From Deltaproteobacteria bacterium RBG_13_61_14 (GTDB taxonomy: Bacteria > RBG-13-61-14), in NCBI GenBank assembly GCA_001797815.1, contig MGQK01000082.1, positions 28,697-35,338 of the forward strand: 6,642 nucleotides of DNA, in the 5' to 3' direction. Of this stretch, positions 1,022 through 6,642 are shown piece after piece. The first letter of the stretch is position 1, and each line of letters opens with the position of its first letter. The notes below the pieces were generated by a model. It searched no databases and was not told the DNA's origin. It worked only from the letters and a program-made list of their open reading frames with translations. Both the position numbers and the translations under genes were made by a program.

Positions 1022-1050
1022 TTGACAAATCCCGAAGCGTTGACTATATT
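1022..1050 (+). promoter_or_regulatory. Strong sigma70-type promoter of the TetR gene
   Basis: A perfect -35 box TTGACA (1022-1027) and a -10 box TATATT (1045-1050, 5 of 6 matches to consensus) are separated by exactly 17 bases. Transcription should start near 1057. A run of eight T's at 1005-1012 falls at about -52 to -45 and could act as an UP element. The last base of the -10 box is the first base of the operator core, so bound repressor would block RNA polymerase directly. Confidence 0.85.
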
Positions 1051-1069
1051 GTGAATAGATATTCACAAT
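1048..1069 (+). promoter_or_regulatory. Palindromic operator O1, probable TetR autoregulatory site
   Basis: A perfect inverted repeat: arm ATTGTGAATA (1048-1057), 2-base centre GA, arm TATTCACAAT (1060-1069). Its core is TGTGAA-N6-TTCACA (1050-1067). It overlaps the -10 box and the expected transcription start, which is where TetR-family repressors commonly bind upstream of their own gene. A second copy of the core lies before the adaptor gene (1756-1775). That the neighbouring TetR protein binds here is inferred from position and symmetry. Confidence 0.82.
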
Positions 1070-1073
1070 GGAG
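1070..1073 (+). promoter_or_regulatory. Shine-Dalgarno site that sets the TetR start at 1080
   Basis: GGAG lies 6 bases before the ATG at 1080. The earlier in-frame ATG at 1068 has no such site, lies at the edge of the operator and would be only about 11 bases from the predicted transcription start. The 1080 start is therefore preferred. Confidence 0.65.
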
Positions 1074-1079
1074 CGGAAG

Positions 1080-1715
1080 ATGCGAGCAGCCAAGGTCGAG
1101 ACCGGGATCCGGCGGGAGCAGATCGCCCAGGCCGCCCTGGGCCTGATCGCCGGCCAGGGTCTTAAGGGCTTGAGCGTGGCCGCGGTGGCGAACCAGGTGG
1201 GCCTGGTGCCGTCCGCCATTTACCGGCATTTTCAGGGCAAGGACCAAGTGCTGAATGCGGTGCTGGACTTGATCAGCATGAGGCTCCAGGAGAACGTGGC
1301 CGCGGTGCGGGCCGAGACCCAGGACCCGCTCGAGCGCATCCACCGTCTGCTCCTTCGTCACATCCAACTGGTGCAGGTTTATCAGGCCATTCCCCGGGTG
1401 CTCTTTTCCGACGAGGTTTACAGCGGCCATCCCGAGCGCAAGGCCAAGCTCTATGGGATCATCCGGGGCTACCTCCAAAAAATTGAGGAGATGGTGAAAG
1501 AGGGACAGCGCCAGGGCCGCATCCGGCCGGAGGTGGCGCCGGAAACCGTGGCGGTGATGTTCCTGGGCATGGTGGCGCCGAGCGCGTTCCTCTGGCACCT
1601 GAGCGACGGCGGCTTTAATATCACCCGCAATACCGAGCGGGCCTGGAAGGTTTTCCGCGCCGCGATCCAGGAGCCGCCGACAACTATGAAAAAGAAGAAA
1701 CGAGTTAAAAAATGA
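1080..1715 (+). CDS. TetR/AcrR-family transcriptional repressor (CecR-like position)
   Basis: A 211-residue protein from the preferred start. The N-terminal TetR_N DNA-binding domain is clear: helix 1 RREQIAQAALGLIAGQGLKG, then LSVAAVANQVGLVPSAIYRHFQGKDQVL. The segment GLVPSAIYRHF is the recognition helix-turn-helix and closely follows the family pattern 'Gvs.galYrHF.sK..l'. The remaining ~145 residues form the helical ligand-binding/dimerisation domain, so the inducer cannot be read from sequence. The chain ends in a basic tail (MKKKKRVKK), unusual next to the rest of the protein. The gene sits 70 bp before a YbhG-type adaptor, as cecR does before ybhGFSR in E. coli, so it most likely represses itself and the transporter and is released by an exported compound. 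An alternative start at 1068 would add four residues (MERK). Confidence 0.9.
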   Translation: MRAAKVETGIRREQIAQAALGLIAGQGLKGLSVAAVANQVGLVPSAIYRHFQGKDQVLNAVLDLISMRLQENVAAVRAETQDPLERIHRLLLRHIQLVQVYQAIPRVLFSDEVYSGHPERKAKLYGIIRGYLQKIEEMVKEGQRQGRIRPEVAPETVAVMFLGMVAPSAFLWHLSDGGFNITRNTERAWKVFRAAIQEPPTTMKKKKRVKK

Positions 1716-1727
1716 ACGCCAAGGTCA

Positions 1728-1757
1728 TTGGGAAGAAGGGTGCAGTAACAAGATTAT
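1728..1757 (+). promoter_or_regulatory. Predicted weak promoter for the efflux operon
   Basis: A -35-like TTGGGA (1728-1733) and a -10-like GATTAT (1752-1757), each 4 of 6 matches to consensus, are 18 bases apart. Alone this would be marginal. The support is that the last T of this -10 box is also the first base of operator O2, exactly as at the TetR promoter. Transcription would start near 1764, after the alternative ATG at 1765 becomes impractical. Read-through from the TetR promoter could also feed the operon, as no terminator is seen between the genes. Confidence 0.45.
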
Positions 1758-1775
1758 GTGAAGCATGGTTCACAT
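1756..1775 (+). promoter_or_regulatory. Operator O2, second copy of the TetR site
   Basis: Inverted repeat with 7-bp arms ATGTGAA (1756-1762) and TTCACAT (1769-1775) around a 6-base centre (GCATGG). The core TGTGAA-N6-TTCACA has the same half-sites and the same spacing as O1; the centre differs in sequence, so this is conservation of contacts rather than a simple duplication. It should let the TetR protein repress the adaptor and transporter genes. Confidence 0.75.
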
Positions 1776-1776
1776 C

Positions 1777-1780
1777 GGAG
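1777..1780 (+). promoter_or_regulatory. Shine-Dalgarno site that sets the adaptor start at 1786
   Basis: GGAG lies 5 bases before the ATG at 1786 (8 before the adjacent ATG at 1789). The earlier in-frame ATG at 1765 falls inside operator O2 and has no ribosome site, so it is rejected. Confidence 0.65.
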
Positions 1781-1785
1781 GCGGG

Positions 1786-2793
1786 ATGATGGAGAAGAAG
1801 CGAATCGCGGGGATGGCGGCGCTGGCGGTGCTCGCGGCCGCGGGCGGGGGCTACTACTACTGGGAGACCCGCGCGGCCGACAACGGGAGCCGGATCCGGG
1901 TTTCCGGCAACATCGAGGTCGTCGAGACCGAGCTGAGCTTCAAGCTGCCCGGCCGGGTGGCGGAGCGCCTGAAGGATGAGGGCGACCGGGTTCAGGCCGG
2001 CGAGCTGATCGCCCGGCTGGAGGACACGGACCTCAAGCAGCAAGTGGATCTGCAGAAGGCGCAGGCCGCAATGGCCGAGGCGGTTTTGGCGGAGCTCTTG
2101 GCCGGGGCGCGGCCGGAGGAGCGGGCGCAGGCCGAGGCCGCGGTGCGGGCGGCGCAGGCCGATTTCAAGCGGATCCAGGATGATTATACTCGCCTGAAAG
2201 ACCTCTTTCAAAAAGGCTCCACCAGCGAGCGGGAATACGATGCGGCCCGGACCGCCTTTGAGGTGGCCCAGACGCGGCTGGACCAGGCGAAGGAACAACT
2301 CGCCCTGGTCCGCAAGGGCCCGCGCCAGGAGAAGATCGAGCAGGGTCAAGCCAACCTGGAACAGGCCCGGGCCGGCCTGGCCCTGGCGCAGACGCGGCTG
2401 GATTATGCAGTTTTGACCTCGCCGCTGGCCGGGGTGGTGTTGGCCAAGGGAGTGGAGCCGGGCGAATACGTGGCCCCGGGCACGCCGGTGGTCACGGTCG
2501 GCGACGTGGAGAACGTGTATTTGCGGGCTTATATCGAGGAGACGGACCTGGGCCGGGTCAAGCTGGGCCAACGGGTGCAGGTGACCACCGATACCTATCC
2601 CGGCAAGGTCTATGAAGGGAAGATCACTTTCATTTCGCCGGAGGCGGAATTCACTCCCAAGAACGTGCAGACCCGGAAGGAACGGGTCAAGCTGGTCTAT
2701 CGGATGAAGGTGGATATCCCGAACCCTCACCAGGAGCTGAAGCCGGGCATGCCCGCGGATGCGGAGATCTTGCTCGGCTCAGAGAGCGAGTGA
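1786..2793 (+). CDS. ybhG: HlyD/YbhG-type periplasmic adaptor (membrane-fusion protein)
   Basis: A 335-residue membrane-fusion protein, close to the length of E. coli YbhG. A short basic start (MMEKKR) precedes a hydrophobic segment at about 7-25, an inner-membrane anchor or uncleaved signal; there is no lipobox cysteine. Residues ~37-80 form the first half of a barrel-sandwich (lipoyl) domain, with the hallmark KLPGRVAERLKDEGDRVQAG. Residues ~85-205 are Ala/Gln/Arg/Glu-rich and should form the long alpha-helical coiled-coil hairpin. The second lipoyl half follows (TSPLAGVV at 211-218, then GEYVAPGTPVVTVGD), then a beta-barrel region to the C-terminus. The protein would link the inner-membrane ABC transporter to an outer-membrane channel. 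Its TGA (2791-2793) shares one base with the ATG of the first ATPase gene. The next genes are ABC rather than RND components, so it belongs to an ABC exporter. Confidence 0.9.
   Translation: MMEKKRIAGMAALAVLAAAGGGYYYWETRAADNGSRIRVSGNIEVVETELSFKLPGRVAERLKDEGDRVQAGELIARLEDTDLKQQVDLQKAQAAMAEAVLAELLAGARPEERAQAEAAVRAAQADFKRIQDDYTRLKDLFQKGSTSEREYDAARTAFEVAQTRLDQAKEQLALVRKGPRQEKIEQGQANLEQARAGLALAQTRLDYAVLTSPLAGVVLAKGVEPGEYVAPGTPVVTVGDVENVYLRAYIEETDLGRVKLGQRVQVTTDTYPGKVYEGKITFISPEAEFTPKNVQTRKERVKLVYRMKVDIPNPHQELKPGMPADAEILLGSESE
2264..2402 (+). repeat. Two 19-bp near-identical segments 120 bp apart in the adaptor gene
   Basis: Positions 2264-2282 and 2384-2402 match at 18 of 19 bases (shared core CAGACGCGGCTGGA), a spacing of exactly 40 codons. 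Both encode AQTRLD in the predicted coiled-coil. This probably reflects repetitive coiled-coil sequence or an old internal duplication rather than a DNA element. Confidence 0.5.
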
Positions 2794-3740
2794 TGGCGGC
2801 GATCCGGTGCGAGGCGCTGACCAAGCGCTTCGAGGGCGTGACCGCGGTGGACGGTCTTTCCCTGGAGGTGGCCGAGGGCGAGATTTTCGGCCTGGTCGGC
2901 CCGGACGGCGCCGGCAAGACCACCACCATGCGGCTCTTGACCTCGATCCTGGACCCGAGTTCCGGCGAGGCCTGGGTGGCGGGTCATCACACGGTCCAAG
3001 AGGCGGAGGCGGTCAAGGAAGAGATCGGTTACATGAGCCAGCGCTTCGGGCTTTACCCGGACCTGACCGTGCAGGAGAACCTGGACTTTTACGCCGACAT
3101 CTACGGGGTGCCCAAGCAGGGCCGGGCGGAGAAGATGAATCGGCTCCTGGCCTTCAGCAACCTTACCCCCTTCAAGAAGCGGCTGGCCGGGAACCTCTCC
3201 GGCGGGATGAAGCAAAAGCTGGGCCTGGCCTGCGCGCTCATCCACACGCCCTCCGTCTTGTTCCTGGACGAGCCTACCAACGGGGTGGACCCGGTCTCGC
3301 GCCGGGATTTCTGGCGCATCCTCTACCAACTGCTCCGCGAGCGGGTCACCATCTTCATTTCCACCGCTTACCTGGACGAGGCCGAGCGCTGCAACCGCCT
3401 GGGGCTTCTGCACCAGGGCCGTCTGATCGCCCAGGGATCGCCCGACCAGGTCAAAGGCCTGATGCAAGGCGCCATCCTGGAAATCCGCACCGCGGAGTCG
3501 CGCCGGACCGCGACGCTGTTGCGCGGGCAGGTGCCGGGATCGGTGGGATTGTTCGGCGACCGCGTGCACGTCACCACCCGGCAGCCGGTAGAGGCCCGGG
3601 CGCAGGCGGAGAAAATCCTGGCCCAGGCCGGAATTAAACTCCTCGGCCTCCAGCCGATTGAGCCGGGTCTGGAAGATATCTTCGTCTCCGTGCTCGGCCG
3701 CGAGCCCAAAGGCTTAAGCGATGCAGACCGGCAACCCTGA
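2793..3740 (+). CDS. ABC transporter ATPase, equivalent to the N-terminal half of YbhF, lacking the H-loop His
   Basis: A 315-residue ABC-2-type ATPase that should power export with the downstream permeases. Motifs: Walker A GPDGAGKTT (36-44, Lys42), Q-loop Gln83 (YMSQ), signature LSGGMKQ (135-141), Walker B VLFLDEP (155-161, Asp159/catalytic Glu160), then NGVDPVSRR (D-loop region). The H-loop position, normally TTHYLDEAE, reads STAYLDEAE: Ala192 (codon 3366-3368) replaces the switch histidine. This NBD may therefore form a weak or non-hydrolysing site when paired with the second ATPase. An ~85-residue C-terminal extension ends in EPGLEDIFVSVLGRE. In E. coli YbhF two such NBDs are fused; here they are separate genes. 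The ATG at 2793 overlaps the adaptor stop (TGATG); a GTG at 2790 would add one residue. The end overlaps the next gene by 20 bp. Confidence 0.92.
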   Translation: MAAIRCEALTKRFEGVTAVDGLSLEVAEGEIFGLVGPDGAGKTTTMRLLTSILDPSSGEAWVAGHHTVQEAEAVKEEIGYMSQRFGLYPDLTVQENLDFYADIYGVPKQGRAEKMNRLLAFSNLTPFKKRLAGNLSGGMKQKLGLACALIHTPSVLFLDEPTNGVDPVSRRDFWRILYQLLRERVTIFISTAYLDEAERCNRLGLLHQGRLIAQGSPDQVKGLMQGAILEIRTAESRRTATLLRGQVPGSVGLFGDRVHVTTRQPVEARAQAEKILAQAGIKLLGLQPIEPGLEDIFVSVLGREPKGLSDADRQP

Positions 3741-4698
3741 TGGAATTGCGGTCCGGGTCCAGGACCTGGAGCGGCGCTTCGGCGCCTTTGTCGCGGTGAA
3801 CCGCATCAGTTTCGAGATCCGCTCGGGCGAGGTCTTCGGGTTCCTGGGCCCGAACGGGGCCGGCAAGTCCACCACCATCCGCATGCTCTGCGGCATTTTA
3901 GCGCCGAGCGGGGGCCAGGGGACGGTGGCGGGGTTCGACATCCGCACCCAGCCGGAGGAGATCAAGTCGCACATCGGCTACATGAGCCAGAAGTTCTCGC
4001 TCTACGAAGACCTGACCGTGGAGGAGAACATTGATTTTTACAGCGGCATTTACCGGATCCCGGCGGAGAAGAAGCCGGCGCGCAAGGAGTGGGTGCTGGA
4101 GATGGCCGGGCTTAAGGAGCACCGCCTTTCCCGGACCGCGACCCTGTCGGGCGGCTGGAAGCAGCGCCTGTCCTTGGGCTGCGCCATCCTGCACGAGCCG
4201 CCCATCCTTTTCCTGGACGAGCCGACTTCGGGGGTGGACCCGATCAGCCGGCGGGCCTTCTGGGACCTGATCCACGAGCTTTCCGGCCGGGGCGTTACCG
4301 TCTTTGTCACCACCCACTACATGGACGAGGCGGAGTATTGTGACCGGCTGGGCCTGATCTACCGGGGCGAGCTGATCGCGCTCGGCACGCCTTCGCGGCT
4401 CAAGACCGAGCTGATGCCGGAGGACGTGCTCGAGGTTTGGTGCGAGCGGCCCCCGGACGCCCTGGGCGAGATCGAGGGGCTGCCCGGGATCCAGGAGGCG
4501 GCCCTGTTCGGCAAGGGCCTGCACGTGGTGGCCCGGGACGGCGCCGCCGCGGTGAAGACGGTGCGGGCGAAGCTCTCGGAAGCCGGCTTTCGGGTGGACC
4601 GGGTCGAGCAGATCGTGCCCTCGCTGGAAGACGTGTTCGTGGCGCTGATCGAGGCGCGGGACCGGGAGCAAGAGCCCCAGGCCGAGGTGCGCGGATGA
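3721..4698 (+). CDS. ABC transporter ATPase, equivalent to the C-terminal half of YbhF, full motif set
   Basis: A 325-residue ABC-2-type ATPase, paralogous to the preceding gene product. All nucleotide-binding motifs are intact: Walker A GPNGAGKST (43-51, Lys49), Q-loop Gln90 (YMSQ), signature LSGGWKQ (142-148), Walker B ILFLDEP (162-168, Asp166/Glu167), SGVDPISRR, and H-loop TTHYMDEAE with His199. A C-terminal extension ends in VPSLEDVFVALIEARD, parallel to the extension of the first ATPase. It likely pairs with the first ATPase as a heterodimer and provides the main hydrolysis activity. The ATG at 3721 lies 20 bp inside the upstream gene, with a modest AAAGG ribosome site (3708-3712) 8 bases upstream; no later in-frame ATG occurs before the conserved domain. 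The stop overlaps the next start as ATGA (4695-4698). Confidence 0.93.
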   Translation: MQTGNPDGIAVRVQDLERRFGAFVAVNRISFEIRSGEVFGFLGPNGAGKSTTIRMLCGILAPSGGQGTVAGFDIRTQPEEIKSHIGYMSQKFSLYEDLTVEENIDFYSGIYRIPAEKKPARKEWVLEMAGLKEHRLSRTATLSGGWKQRLSLGCAILHEPPILFLDEPTSGVDPISRRAFWDLIHELSGRGVTVFVTTHYMDEAEYCDRLGLIYRGELIALGTPSRLKTELMPEDVLEVWCERPPDALGEIEGLPGIQEAALFGKGLHVVARDGAAAVKTVRAKLSEAGFRVDRVEQIVPSLEDVFVALIEARDREQEPQAEVRG

Positions 4699-5828
4699 AC
4701 CGGCGTCGGGTCTGGGCCATGACCCGCAAGGAGTTCCTGCATGTGCTCCGCGATTCCCGGAGCCTGGCCATGGCCATTGCCATCCCCATCCTCTTGCTGA
4801 TCCTCTTCGGTTATGCCCTGACCCTGGACGTGGATCAGGTGCCGCTCAAGGTCTGGGACCAGAGCCGGACGCCGGACAGCCGCCGGTTCCTCAGCCGGTT
4901 TTCCGGCTCCCGTTATTTCCAACTCCGGGATGATGCCAACAACTACCGCGAGCTGGAACGCGCCATTGATACGCGCGAGACCCTGATGGCCATGGTCATC
5001 CCCCGCGACTTTGCAGAGCGGCTTCGGGCAGGCCGGTCCGTCTCCGTGCAGCTGATCGTGGACGGGAGCGACTCGATGACCGCGACCATTGCCCTGGGCT
5101 ATGCCGAGGCCGCGGCGATGCTCTATTCCCAGTCGCTCGCGCTGGAAAAGATGCAGCGCGCCGGCGGCCGGACCCTGGGGCTGCCCCTGGAGCTGCGGCC
5201 CCGGGTGTGGTTCAACTCCGAGCTTCAGTCCCGGAACTTCATCATCCCGGGCCTGATCGCGGTGATCATGATGGTGATCGCGGCGCTCCTCACTTCCCTC
5301 ACCGTGGCCCGGGAATGGGAGCGGGGCACCATGGAACAGCTCATCTCCACCCCGGTCCAAGGCCGCGAGCTGATCCTGGGCAAGCTCGCGCCCTATTTCG
5401 TAATCGGAATGCTGGACGTGACCCTCGCGGTGGTGATGGGGAAATACCTGTTTGACGTGCCCTTGCGGGGCAGCGTGGCCCTGGTCTTCCTGATGTCCGG
5501 CGTGTTCCTGGCCGGCGCCCTGGGCATGGGCCTGCTGATCAGCATCCTCACCAAGAGCCAGCTCCTCGCCAACCAGCTGGCCATGGTCCTCACCTTTTTG
5601 CCCGCGTTCCTGCTCTCCGGTTTTGCCTTTCCGATCGCGAATATGCCCAAGCTGATCCAGGCGGTTACCTACCTGGTCCCGGCCCGATATTTCATCAGCC
5701 TCTTGAAAGGCATTTACCTGAAAGGCATCGGGCTGCACGTCCTCTGGCTGGAGGCGGTCTTGTTGACGGTCTTTGGGATGATCATTCTGGCAATGGCCGA
5801 GAGGAAGTTTAAAAAGAAGTTGGAATAG
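4695..5828 (+). CDS. ybhS: ABC-2 type permease, YbhS-like
   Basis: A 377-residue integral membrane permease. The first helix is at about 24-42 (IAIPILLLILFGYAL), preceded by the cytoplasmic MTRKEFLHVLRDSR segment common in this family. A large extracytoplasmic domain follows (~43-180), with a DGSDS motif at 123-127. About five further helices fill the C-terminal half, starting at NFIIPG (181-186). The loop after the second helix carries the family signature REWERGTMEQLISTPV (Arg206 onward), thought to contact the ATPase. Sequence from residue 181 on strongly recalls E. coli YbhS (REWERGTME, GMGLLIS, AVTYLVPARYF). The chosen ATG at 4695 has a GAGG ribosome site (4684-4687), an ATGA overlap with the ATPase gene and the family's usual N-terminus; the frame stays open back to 4437, but that extension is compositionally artificial. 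It probably pairs with the next permease. Confidence 0.92.
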   Translation: MNRRRVWAMTRKEFLHVLRDSRSLAMAIAIPILLLILFGYALTLDVDQVPLKVWDQSRTPDSRRFLSRFSGSRYFQLRDDANNYRELERAIDTRETLMAMVIPRDFAERLRAGRSVSVQLIVDGSDSMTATIALGYAEAAAMLYSQSLALEKMQRAGGRTLGLPLELRPRVWFNSELQSRNFIIPGLIAVIMMVIAALLTSLTVAREWERGTMEQLISTPVQGRELILGKLAPYFVIGMLDVTLAVVMGKYLFDVPLRGSVALVFLMSGVFLAGALGMGLLISILTKSQLLANQLAMVLTFLPAFLLSGFAFPIANMPKLIQAVTYLVPARYFISLLKGIYLKGIGLHVLWLEAVLLTVFGMIILAMAERKFKKKLE

Positions 5829-5830
5829 GC

Positions 5831-6642
5831 ATGTTCGAGCGACTGCGCCAGATGCTGGTCAAGGAGTTCATCCAGGTGTTTCGCGACCCCCGGATGAAGG
5901 GCATGATCTTCGGGATGCCGCTGATCCAGTTGTTGATCATGGGCTATGCGGTCAACATGGATGTCAGGCACATCGCCACCGCGGTCTATGACCTGGATCA
6001 AAGCGTGGCCAGCCGCGAGCTGACTGCCCGGTTCGCCAACTCCGGCTATTTTAATATTAAGCGCTACCTCCCCCGGGACGCGGAGGCCCGCGAGCTGATG
6101 GACCATGGCCAGGTCCAGGTCATCCTTCATCTCCGCCCGGGCTTCGAACGGGACCTCCTCGCCGGAAAGACCGTCCCGCTGCAGGTGATTCTGGACGGGA
6201 CCGATTCCAATACCGCTGCGGTCGTGCTCAGCTACAGCCTGAAGATCGCCGTCCAATTCTCGCAAGACCTGCTCACCCGCCGGCTAATGCGGATGGGGGC
6301 GTTGGCCAAAACCCCGGGCCGGGTGGAAGTGCAAAGCCGAGCCTGGTTCAACGAGAACCTGGAGAGCCGGAATTTCTTTGTCCCGGGGGTCATCGCGCTC
6401 CTGATCAGTCTGGTGACCTTGATGCTGACCAGCATGGCCATTGTCCGGGAAAAGGAACTCGGCACCATGGAGCAGATCATCGTCACCCCCATCCGGCCCC
6501 ACGAGTTCATCCTGGGCAAGACCGTTCCTTTCGCCCTGATCGGTTACGTGGACGTGGTCCTGGTGATCGTGGTGGGAGTGTGGTGGTTTGAGGTGCCGCT
6601 CCGGGGCAACCTCGGCTTGCTGTTCGGCGCCACCACCCTCTA
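5831..6642 (+). CDS. ybhR: ABC-2 type permease, YbhR-like, cut by the window end
   Basis: The reading frame is open from ATG 5831 to the window end (270 codons plus 2 bases), about three quarters of a typical ~370-residue permease. It is a paralogue of the preceding permease: KEFIQVFRDPR at the N-terminus, first helix at ~24-41 (MPLIQLLIMGYAV), a DGTDS motif (122-126) in the extracytoplasmic domain, WFNENLESRNFFVPG, then the loop REKELGTMEQIIVTP. The Asn of SRN is residue 181 and the Arg of the loop is residue 206 in both permeases, so the paralogues are nearly colinear. It starts 2 bases after the previous stop, which suggests coupled translation. It should form the other half of the transmembrane channel. 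The last helices and any downstream gene are outside the window. Confidence 0.92.
   Translation, partial: MFERLRQMLVKEFIQVFRDPRMKGMIFGMPLIQLLIMGYAVNMDVRHIATAVYDLDQSVASRELTARFANSGYFNIKRYLPRDAEARELMDHGQVQVILHLRPGFERDLLAGKTVPLQVILDGTDSNTAAVVLSYSLKIAVQFSQDLLTRRLMRMGALAKTPGRVEVQSRAWFNENLESRNFFVPGVIALLISLVTLMLTSMAIVREKELGTMEQIIVTPIRPHEFILGKTVPFALIGYVDVVLVIVVGVWWFEVPLRGNLGLLFGATTL

Follow-up and report, generated by a model that had tools for sequence, protein, structure and literature searches.

The YbhGFSR operon of E. coli is regulated by CecR (YbiH) (PMC6790063, PMC7190983). SlmA binds GTGAGTACTCAC, with GTGAGT as half-site (PMC3116907), and the operator reported for Rex is TTGTGAA-N4-TTCACAA (PMC5355995). 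The locus described here, from Deltaproteobacteria bacterium RBG_13_61_14 (assembly GCA_001797815.1, contig MGQK01000082.1, positions 28,697-35,338, forward strand), shares features with each of these systems. Within the analyzed stretch of 6,642 nt, hereafter the window, two palindromes, O1 and O2, are almost certainly, judging from sequence comparison, the binding sites of a TetR-type repressor whose gene lies between them; this protein probably holds both its own gene and the neighbouring multi-part ABC export pump in the off state. The features of the window are the following.

Beginning of the window: end only of a RodZ-like helix-turn-helix gene
174-932: QueG-like Fe-S protein
968-987: terminator-like hairpin, upstream of tetR
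1022-1027 (-35) and 1045-1050 (-10), forward strand: predicted tetR promoter TTGACA-N17-TATATT, transcript start expected at about 1056-1058
1050-1067, not stranded: putative operator O1, TGTGAATAGATATTCACA; the palindrome reaches 1048-1069 and overlaps the -10 end and the expected transcript start
1070-1073, forward strand: Shine-Dalgarno GGAG of tetR, 2 nt 3' of O1; orthologues are arranged alike
1080-1715, forward strand: tetR, predicted TetR/AcrR-family repressor of 211 amino acids
1752-1757, forward strand: candidate weak -10 GATTAT, with TTGGGA at 1728-1733 and an 18-nt spacer; p about 0.11, chance-like
1757-1774, not stranded: putative operator O2, TGTGAAGCATGGTTCACA, weaker than O1
1777-1781, forward strand: Shine-Dalgarno GGAGG of the adaptor gene, 2 nt 3' of O2
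1789-2793, forward strand: HlyD/YbhG-like periplasmic adaptor, ATG at 1789, or 1786 (PRK03598, 8e-88)
2793-3740, forward strand: ABC ATPase 1, from domain search
3721-4698, forward strand: ABC ATPase 2, from domain search
4695-5828, forward strand: ABC-2 permease 1 (YbhS/R-like), from domain and family search
5831-6642, forward strand: ABC-2 permease 2, running on beyond the window

The start of tetR was placed at 1080, and not at the ATG at 1068, because the starts of the orthologues align there, behind the Shine-Dalgarno sequence. For the adaptor, 1789 (or 1786) is the probable start, rather than the ATG at 1765, which falls within O2. The operon probably ends with permease 2; beyond it, the next probable gene is encoded on the opposite strand, and no TolC-like gene was found directly after the permease. 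The protein encoded at 174-932 has no Pfam match and features weak similarity to epoxyqueuosine reductase and reductive dehalogenase.

The tetR product contains the TetR_N helix-turn-helix (PF00440, 41 bits against a cut-off of 24) and the all-helical C-terminal domain which define the TetR/AcrR family, with further matches, TetR_C_24 among them, to PF17932 and PF08359; its recognition helix is GLVPSAIYRHF. The palindrome over the own or an adjacent promoter, expected in this family, is also present, as far as the sequence can tell. The AlphaFold2 model of the protein has a pLDDT of 90, and its top Foldseek matches are the SlmA-DNA complexes 4gct (the best) and 4gfk.

Both copies of TGTGAA-N6-TTCACA listed by the earlier note, at 1050-1067 and 1757-1774, are exact, and the genome scan which it proposed returned them as the sole exact copies in the 4.74-Mb genome (4,736,847 bases); with one mismatch permitted, the genome yields a single additional site, and the reversed control pattern is absent. 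Shuffles of the window never yielded two matches, even at up to 2 mismatches. O1 is a 22-bp palindrome, ATTGTGAATA-GA-TATTCACAAT, while that of O2 is shorter and less symmetric (ATGTGAA..TTCACAT). A scoring matrix derived from 29 sites, the window being left out, ranks O1 best (32.1 bits) and O2 second (21.9) in the window, the next position scoring 6.7.

Conservation was evaluated in orthologues of the TetR protein. A protein search of genome contigs selected 13 of them (L039-L051; at least 43% tblastn identity, at least 41% over aligned proteins) in Planctomycetota, Acidobacteriota, Thermodesulfobacteriota and others, along with more distant TetR relatives, and later searches added L109, L110 and L111. 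A matching site precedes tetR in all 17 orthologues, window included, for which upstream sequence was available (at least 41% identity, several phyla); the copies in L048 and L050 are imperfect. When perfect gapped palindromes were searched without bias in 14 tetR upstream regions, TGTGA-N8-TCACA was found in 12, and in 300 shuffled sets of upstream regions any palindrome recurred in at most 2 loci. One-mismatch matches number 2 to 11 in each of 14 orthologue genomes, with exact copies at the tetR locus in several of these. The TetR of locus L004, from another phylum, is 53% identical to that of the window; its gene is preceded by a site identical to O1, centre included, and by a predicted promoter, TTGACA-N17-TATAAT, ending on the same operator T as in the window, and AGTGAATATGTATTCACA precedes the adaptor. 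An extra gene (L004:2133-2747) separates tetR from the adaptor in that locus, where both operators are nonetheless present.

Some further occurrences are worth recording. Two overlapping copies, sharing sequence, lie before tetR at L044:2151-2175. In a more distant TetR clade (L053-L056, Desulfomicrobium and others), AGTGAACGATCGTTAACT is found before tetR; in two of these loci, L053 and L055, tetR is followed by an RND-type adaptor gene, which has a related site. Two related Planctomycetota genomes carry, on another contig, an exact TGTGAA-N6-TTCACA near a TATAAT (L099:3973-3990, L100:1508-1525), upstream of a nucleoside-diphosphate-kinase-like gene: it is possibly a further target, or a chance occurrence.

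Twelve loci (the window, L004, L039, L041, L042, L043, L045, L046, L047, L049, L109 and L110) carry a second site, ahead of the YbhG-like adaptor; in L043 and L049 it overlaps the tetR end. Three sites each are found in L041 (4703-4839) and L042 (4656-4779). In L050, whose adaptor overlaps tetR, a second site was sought and not found. Homologous adaptors accompanied by other regulators feature no site at the adaptor start (27 loci). Before tetR, on the other hand, the site is kept despite a different neighbour, a hybrid-cluster-like protein in L048, an RND-like exporter in L111 and RND-type adaptors in L040 and L044, all names read from the translated sequence and not from family searches. These comparisons indicate that the site goes with the TetR and not with the transporter. 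Among 70 other TetR loci, taken as controls, the best match never exceeds 10 of 12 positions, a level seen in few, and is mostly 7-8; lone weak sites, such as that of L050, are for this reason not proof alone.

The attribution of both operators to this TetR, made in the earlier note, is thus supported by their conservation with the orthologues, their absence at adaptors with other regulators and their uniqueness in the genome; of the outcomes named there as adverse, neither cores lacking conservation nor many genomic copies were observed.

The half-sites also recall other regulators. That of CRP is TGTGA, within the operator TGTGA-N6-TCACA, and the same TGTGA occurs in the present sites; TTGTGAA is likewise identical to half of the reported Rex operator (PMC5355995). 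The palindromes might in principle be Rex or CRP-type sites rather than those of TetR, which we regard as very unlikely: the spacing at the examined sites is 2 bases longer, the own genome holds no exact match with the Rex or CRP spacing, and the sites track the TetR gene, not redox genes. The Rex DNA-binding domain (PF06971) is missing from the own genome; 17 other genomes were checked for it, and 10 lack it as well. Membership in a Rex regulon was rejected, given the wrong spacing and no rex gene in the own genome.

The aligned sites define the operator as W-TGTGAAY-N4-RTTCACA-W, which the TetR-family protein (1080-1715) would bind as a dimer. In symmetrised counts G2, T3, G4 and A5 are nearly invariant, T1 and A6 are strong, T or C is found at position 7, and A or T just outside position 1. 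The inner four bases are free, except for a T preference at position 9 of the tetR sites, which probably reflects the overlapping -10. The earlier view that half-sites and spacing are kept but not the middle therefore needs amending: the centres of O1 and O2 do differ, and those of the adaptor sites vary freely, but each half-site covers about 8 bp and, at tetR, L004 carries the whole 18-mer TGTGAATAGATATTCACA of O1. No paper on such a TetR operator was found in the literature searched, where most subscription papers are absent; as far as searched, the operator is undescribed, the module itself being of the ordinary autoregulated TetR-ABC exporter kind. A precise operator would thereby be available for a TetR group of Planctomycetota, Acidobacteriota, Thermodesulfobacteriota and poorly sampled phyla, in which regulators with known sites are few, and TGTGA-N8-TCACA would provide a simple criterion for locating the targets of this group.

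The predicted tetR promoter matches the consensus at 11 of 12 positions, with a 17-nt spacer (p about 0.003), and the last base of its TATATT box (1045-1050) is the first T of O1. A repressor sitting there would mask the final part of the -10 together with the transcript start, so that RNA polymerase would be blocked, resulting in negative autoregulation. The strong autoregulated promoter anticipated for tetR is supported by the recurrence of this register in orthologues. At each of 18 TetR loci the top-scoring sigma-70 promoter around the site was selected (most with p about 0.003 against shuffles); the final base of its -10 coincided with operator position 1 (offset 0) in 10 cases and with position 14 (+13) in 6. 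Either register would place the repressor on the -10.

The same registers bear on a role of the palindromes in RNA, as hairpins near ribosome-binding sites, which could be suspected from the location of O1 and O2, each 2 nt 5' of a Shine-Dalgarno sequence. This is extremely improbable: a transcript starting near 1057, as predicted, would not include the left arm of O1, the freely varying centres of the adaptor sites do not suit an RNA hairpin, and offsets of 0 and +13 relative to the -10 fit DNA binding.

Repression at the DNA level being preferred, O2, located just before the adaptor ribosome-binding site, would serve to repress the adaptor-ATPase-ATPase-permease-permease operon; it could do so by closing a local promoter or by blocking polymerase reading through from tetR. 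A weak transporter promoter placed like that of tetR, as the earlier note proposed, could not be confirmed: the last base of GATTAT is indeed the first T of O2, but the candidate is not significant (p about 0.11), so that the common position against two promoters holds at tetR, where it recurs, and not at O2. No convincing sigma-70 promoter was predicted at the adaptor-side sites, perhaps with the exception of L041 (p 0.03) and L047 (p 0.05), where TTGACA lies just 5' of the site. The transporter may therefore rely on read-through from tetR, or on an unrecognised promoter.

It is quite possible, although we do not favour it, that only O1 blocks a promoter, the transporter being transcribed only from the tetR promoter and O2 having a secondary function, as a roadblock to read-through or in titration or looping. 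Only 41 nt separate the tetR stop from O2, nothing resembling a terminator was detected in the window between tetR and the adaptor, and this arrangement would agree with the lack of a significant promoter at O2, as well as with the second sites overlapping the tetR end. The TTGACA of L041 and L047 points the other way, as does a terminator-like hairpin with a T-run found 5' of the second site in L041, L042 and L053, where the adaptor would therefore need its own promoter. We rejected a terminator as a general feature of the tetR-adaptor gap, hairpin and T-run being present in these three loci only.

We thus retain repression at both sites. Release of the repressor would be expected to be triggered by a small molecule, which is probably exported by the pump itself. 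Taken as a whole, the model by which the TetR protein acts at O1 and O2, regulates itself, represses the exporter and is released by a ligand appears highly probable from the evidence described.

Comparison with more distant relatives suggests a tentative extension, noticed post hoc and among related sequences which are not independent: across many phyla, this TetR group may share one geometry, hexamers 4 bp apart, with a half-site that varies according to how the recognition helix begins. Helices of the type P-S/A-(A/G)-x-YRHF would pair with GTGAA, those of the actinobacterial type S/T-GPALYRHF with GTTAA, and SEANLYRHF with GTGAG, as in SlmA (SEAALYRHF and GTGAGT), whose site is, however, ungapped. 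SEANLYRHF is found in distant relatives with GTGAGTAAATACTCAC (L052) and GTAAGTTAGCGCTCAC (L112); in these and in the actinobacterial loci the geometry is constant, and single half-site bases change with the helix. The actinobacterial TetR genes with the S/T-GPALYRHF helix (L057-L087) often have TGTTAAY-N4-RTTAACA upstream, about 55-140 bases before the match. Should the co-variation be true, operators of uncharacterised TetR proteins would be predictable from sequence, and part of the family would have a readable DNA-recognition code.

Among the systems compared, Bacillus FadR (YsiA), AcrR, MtrR and TtgR resemble the present one in fold, C-terminal type (TetR_C_4 or TetR_C_24) and operator-over-promoter logic; for FadR and similar repressors, the scores against NCBIfam equivalogs fall far short of the cut-off and no operator match was found in the papers searched. 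Rex shares the half-site TTGTGAA, and differs in spacing, N4 against N6, and in protein family.

CecR-YbhGFSR is alike in layout: immediately after a TetR-type gene comes an operon that unites a YbhG-like adaptor with the two nucleotide-binding domains and two permeases of an ABC-2 exporter. The ATPases are, however, fused in E. coli as YbhF, while the window has two separate genes (2793-3740 and 3721-4698), and the adaptor is a YbhG relative rather than an equivalog, since it scores 294.7 bits against PRK03598, below the curated cut-off of 393. The CecR recognition helix, GQNIAAITYYFGSKED, is unlike that of the window TetR, and upstream of E. coli cecR (L106) we found no TGTGAA operator but a different palindrome, TTAATCAATCATTTGATTAA, a candidate CecR operator; orthology with CecR was rejected on both counts.

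SlmA provides the closest match of solved structure (4gct, 4gfk), a half-site, GTGAGT, close to GTGAAT, and a helix, SEAALYRHF, resembling the PSAIYRHF of the window TetR. O1 and O2 are not SlmA binding sites: the latter are 12 bp long and ungapped, occur about 50 times per genome and act on FtsZ, whereas the window has hexamers separated by N4, in two copies, serving a single operon.
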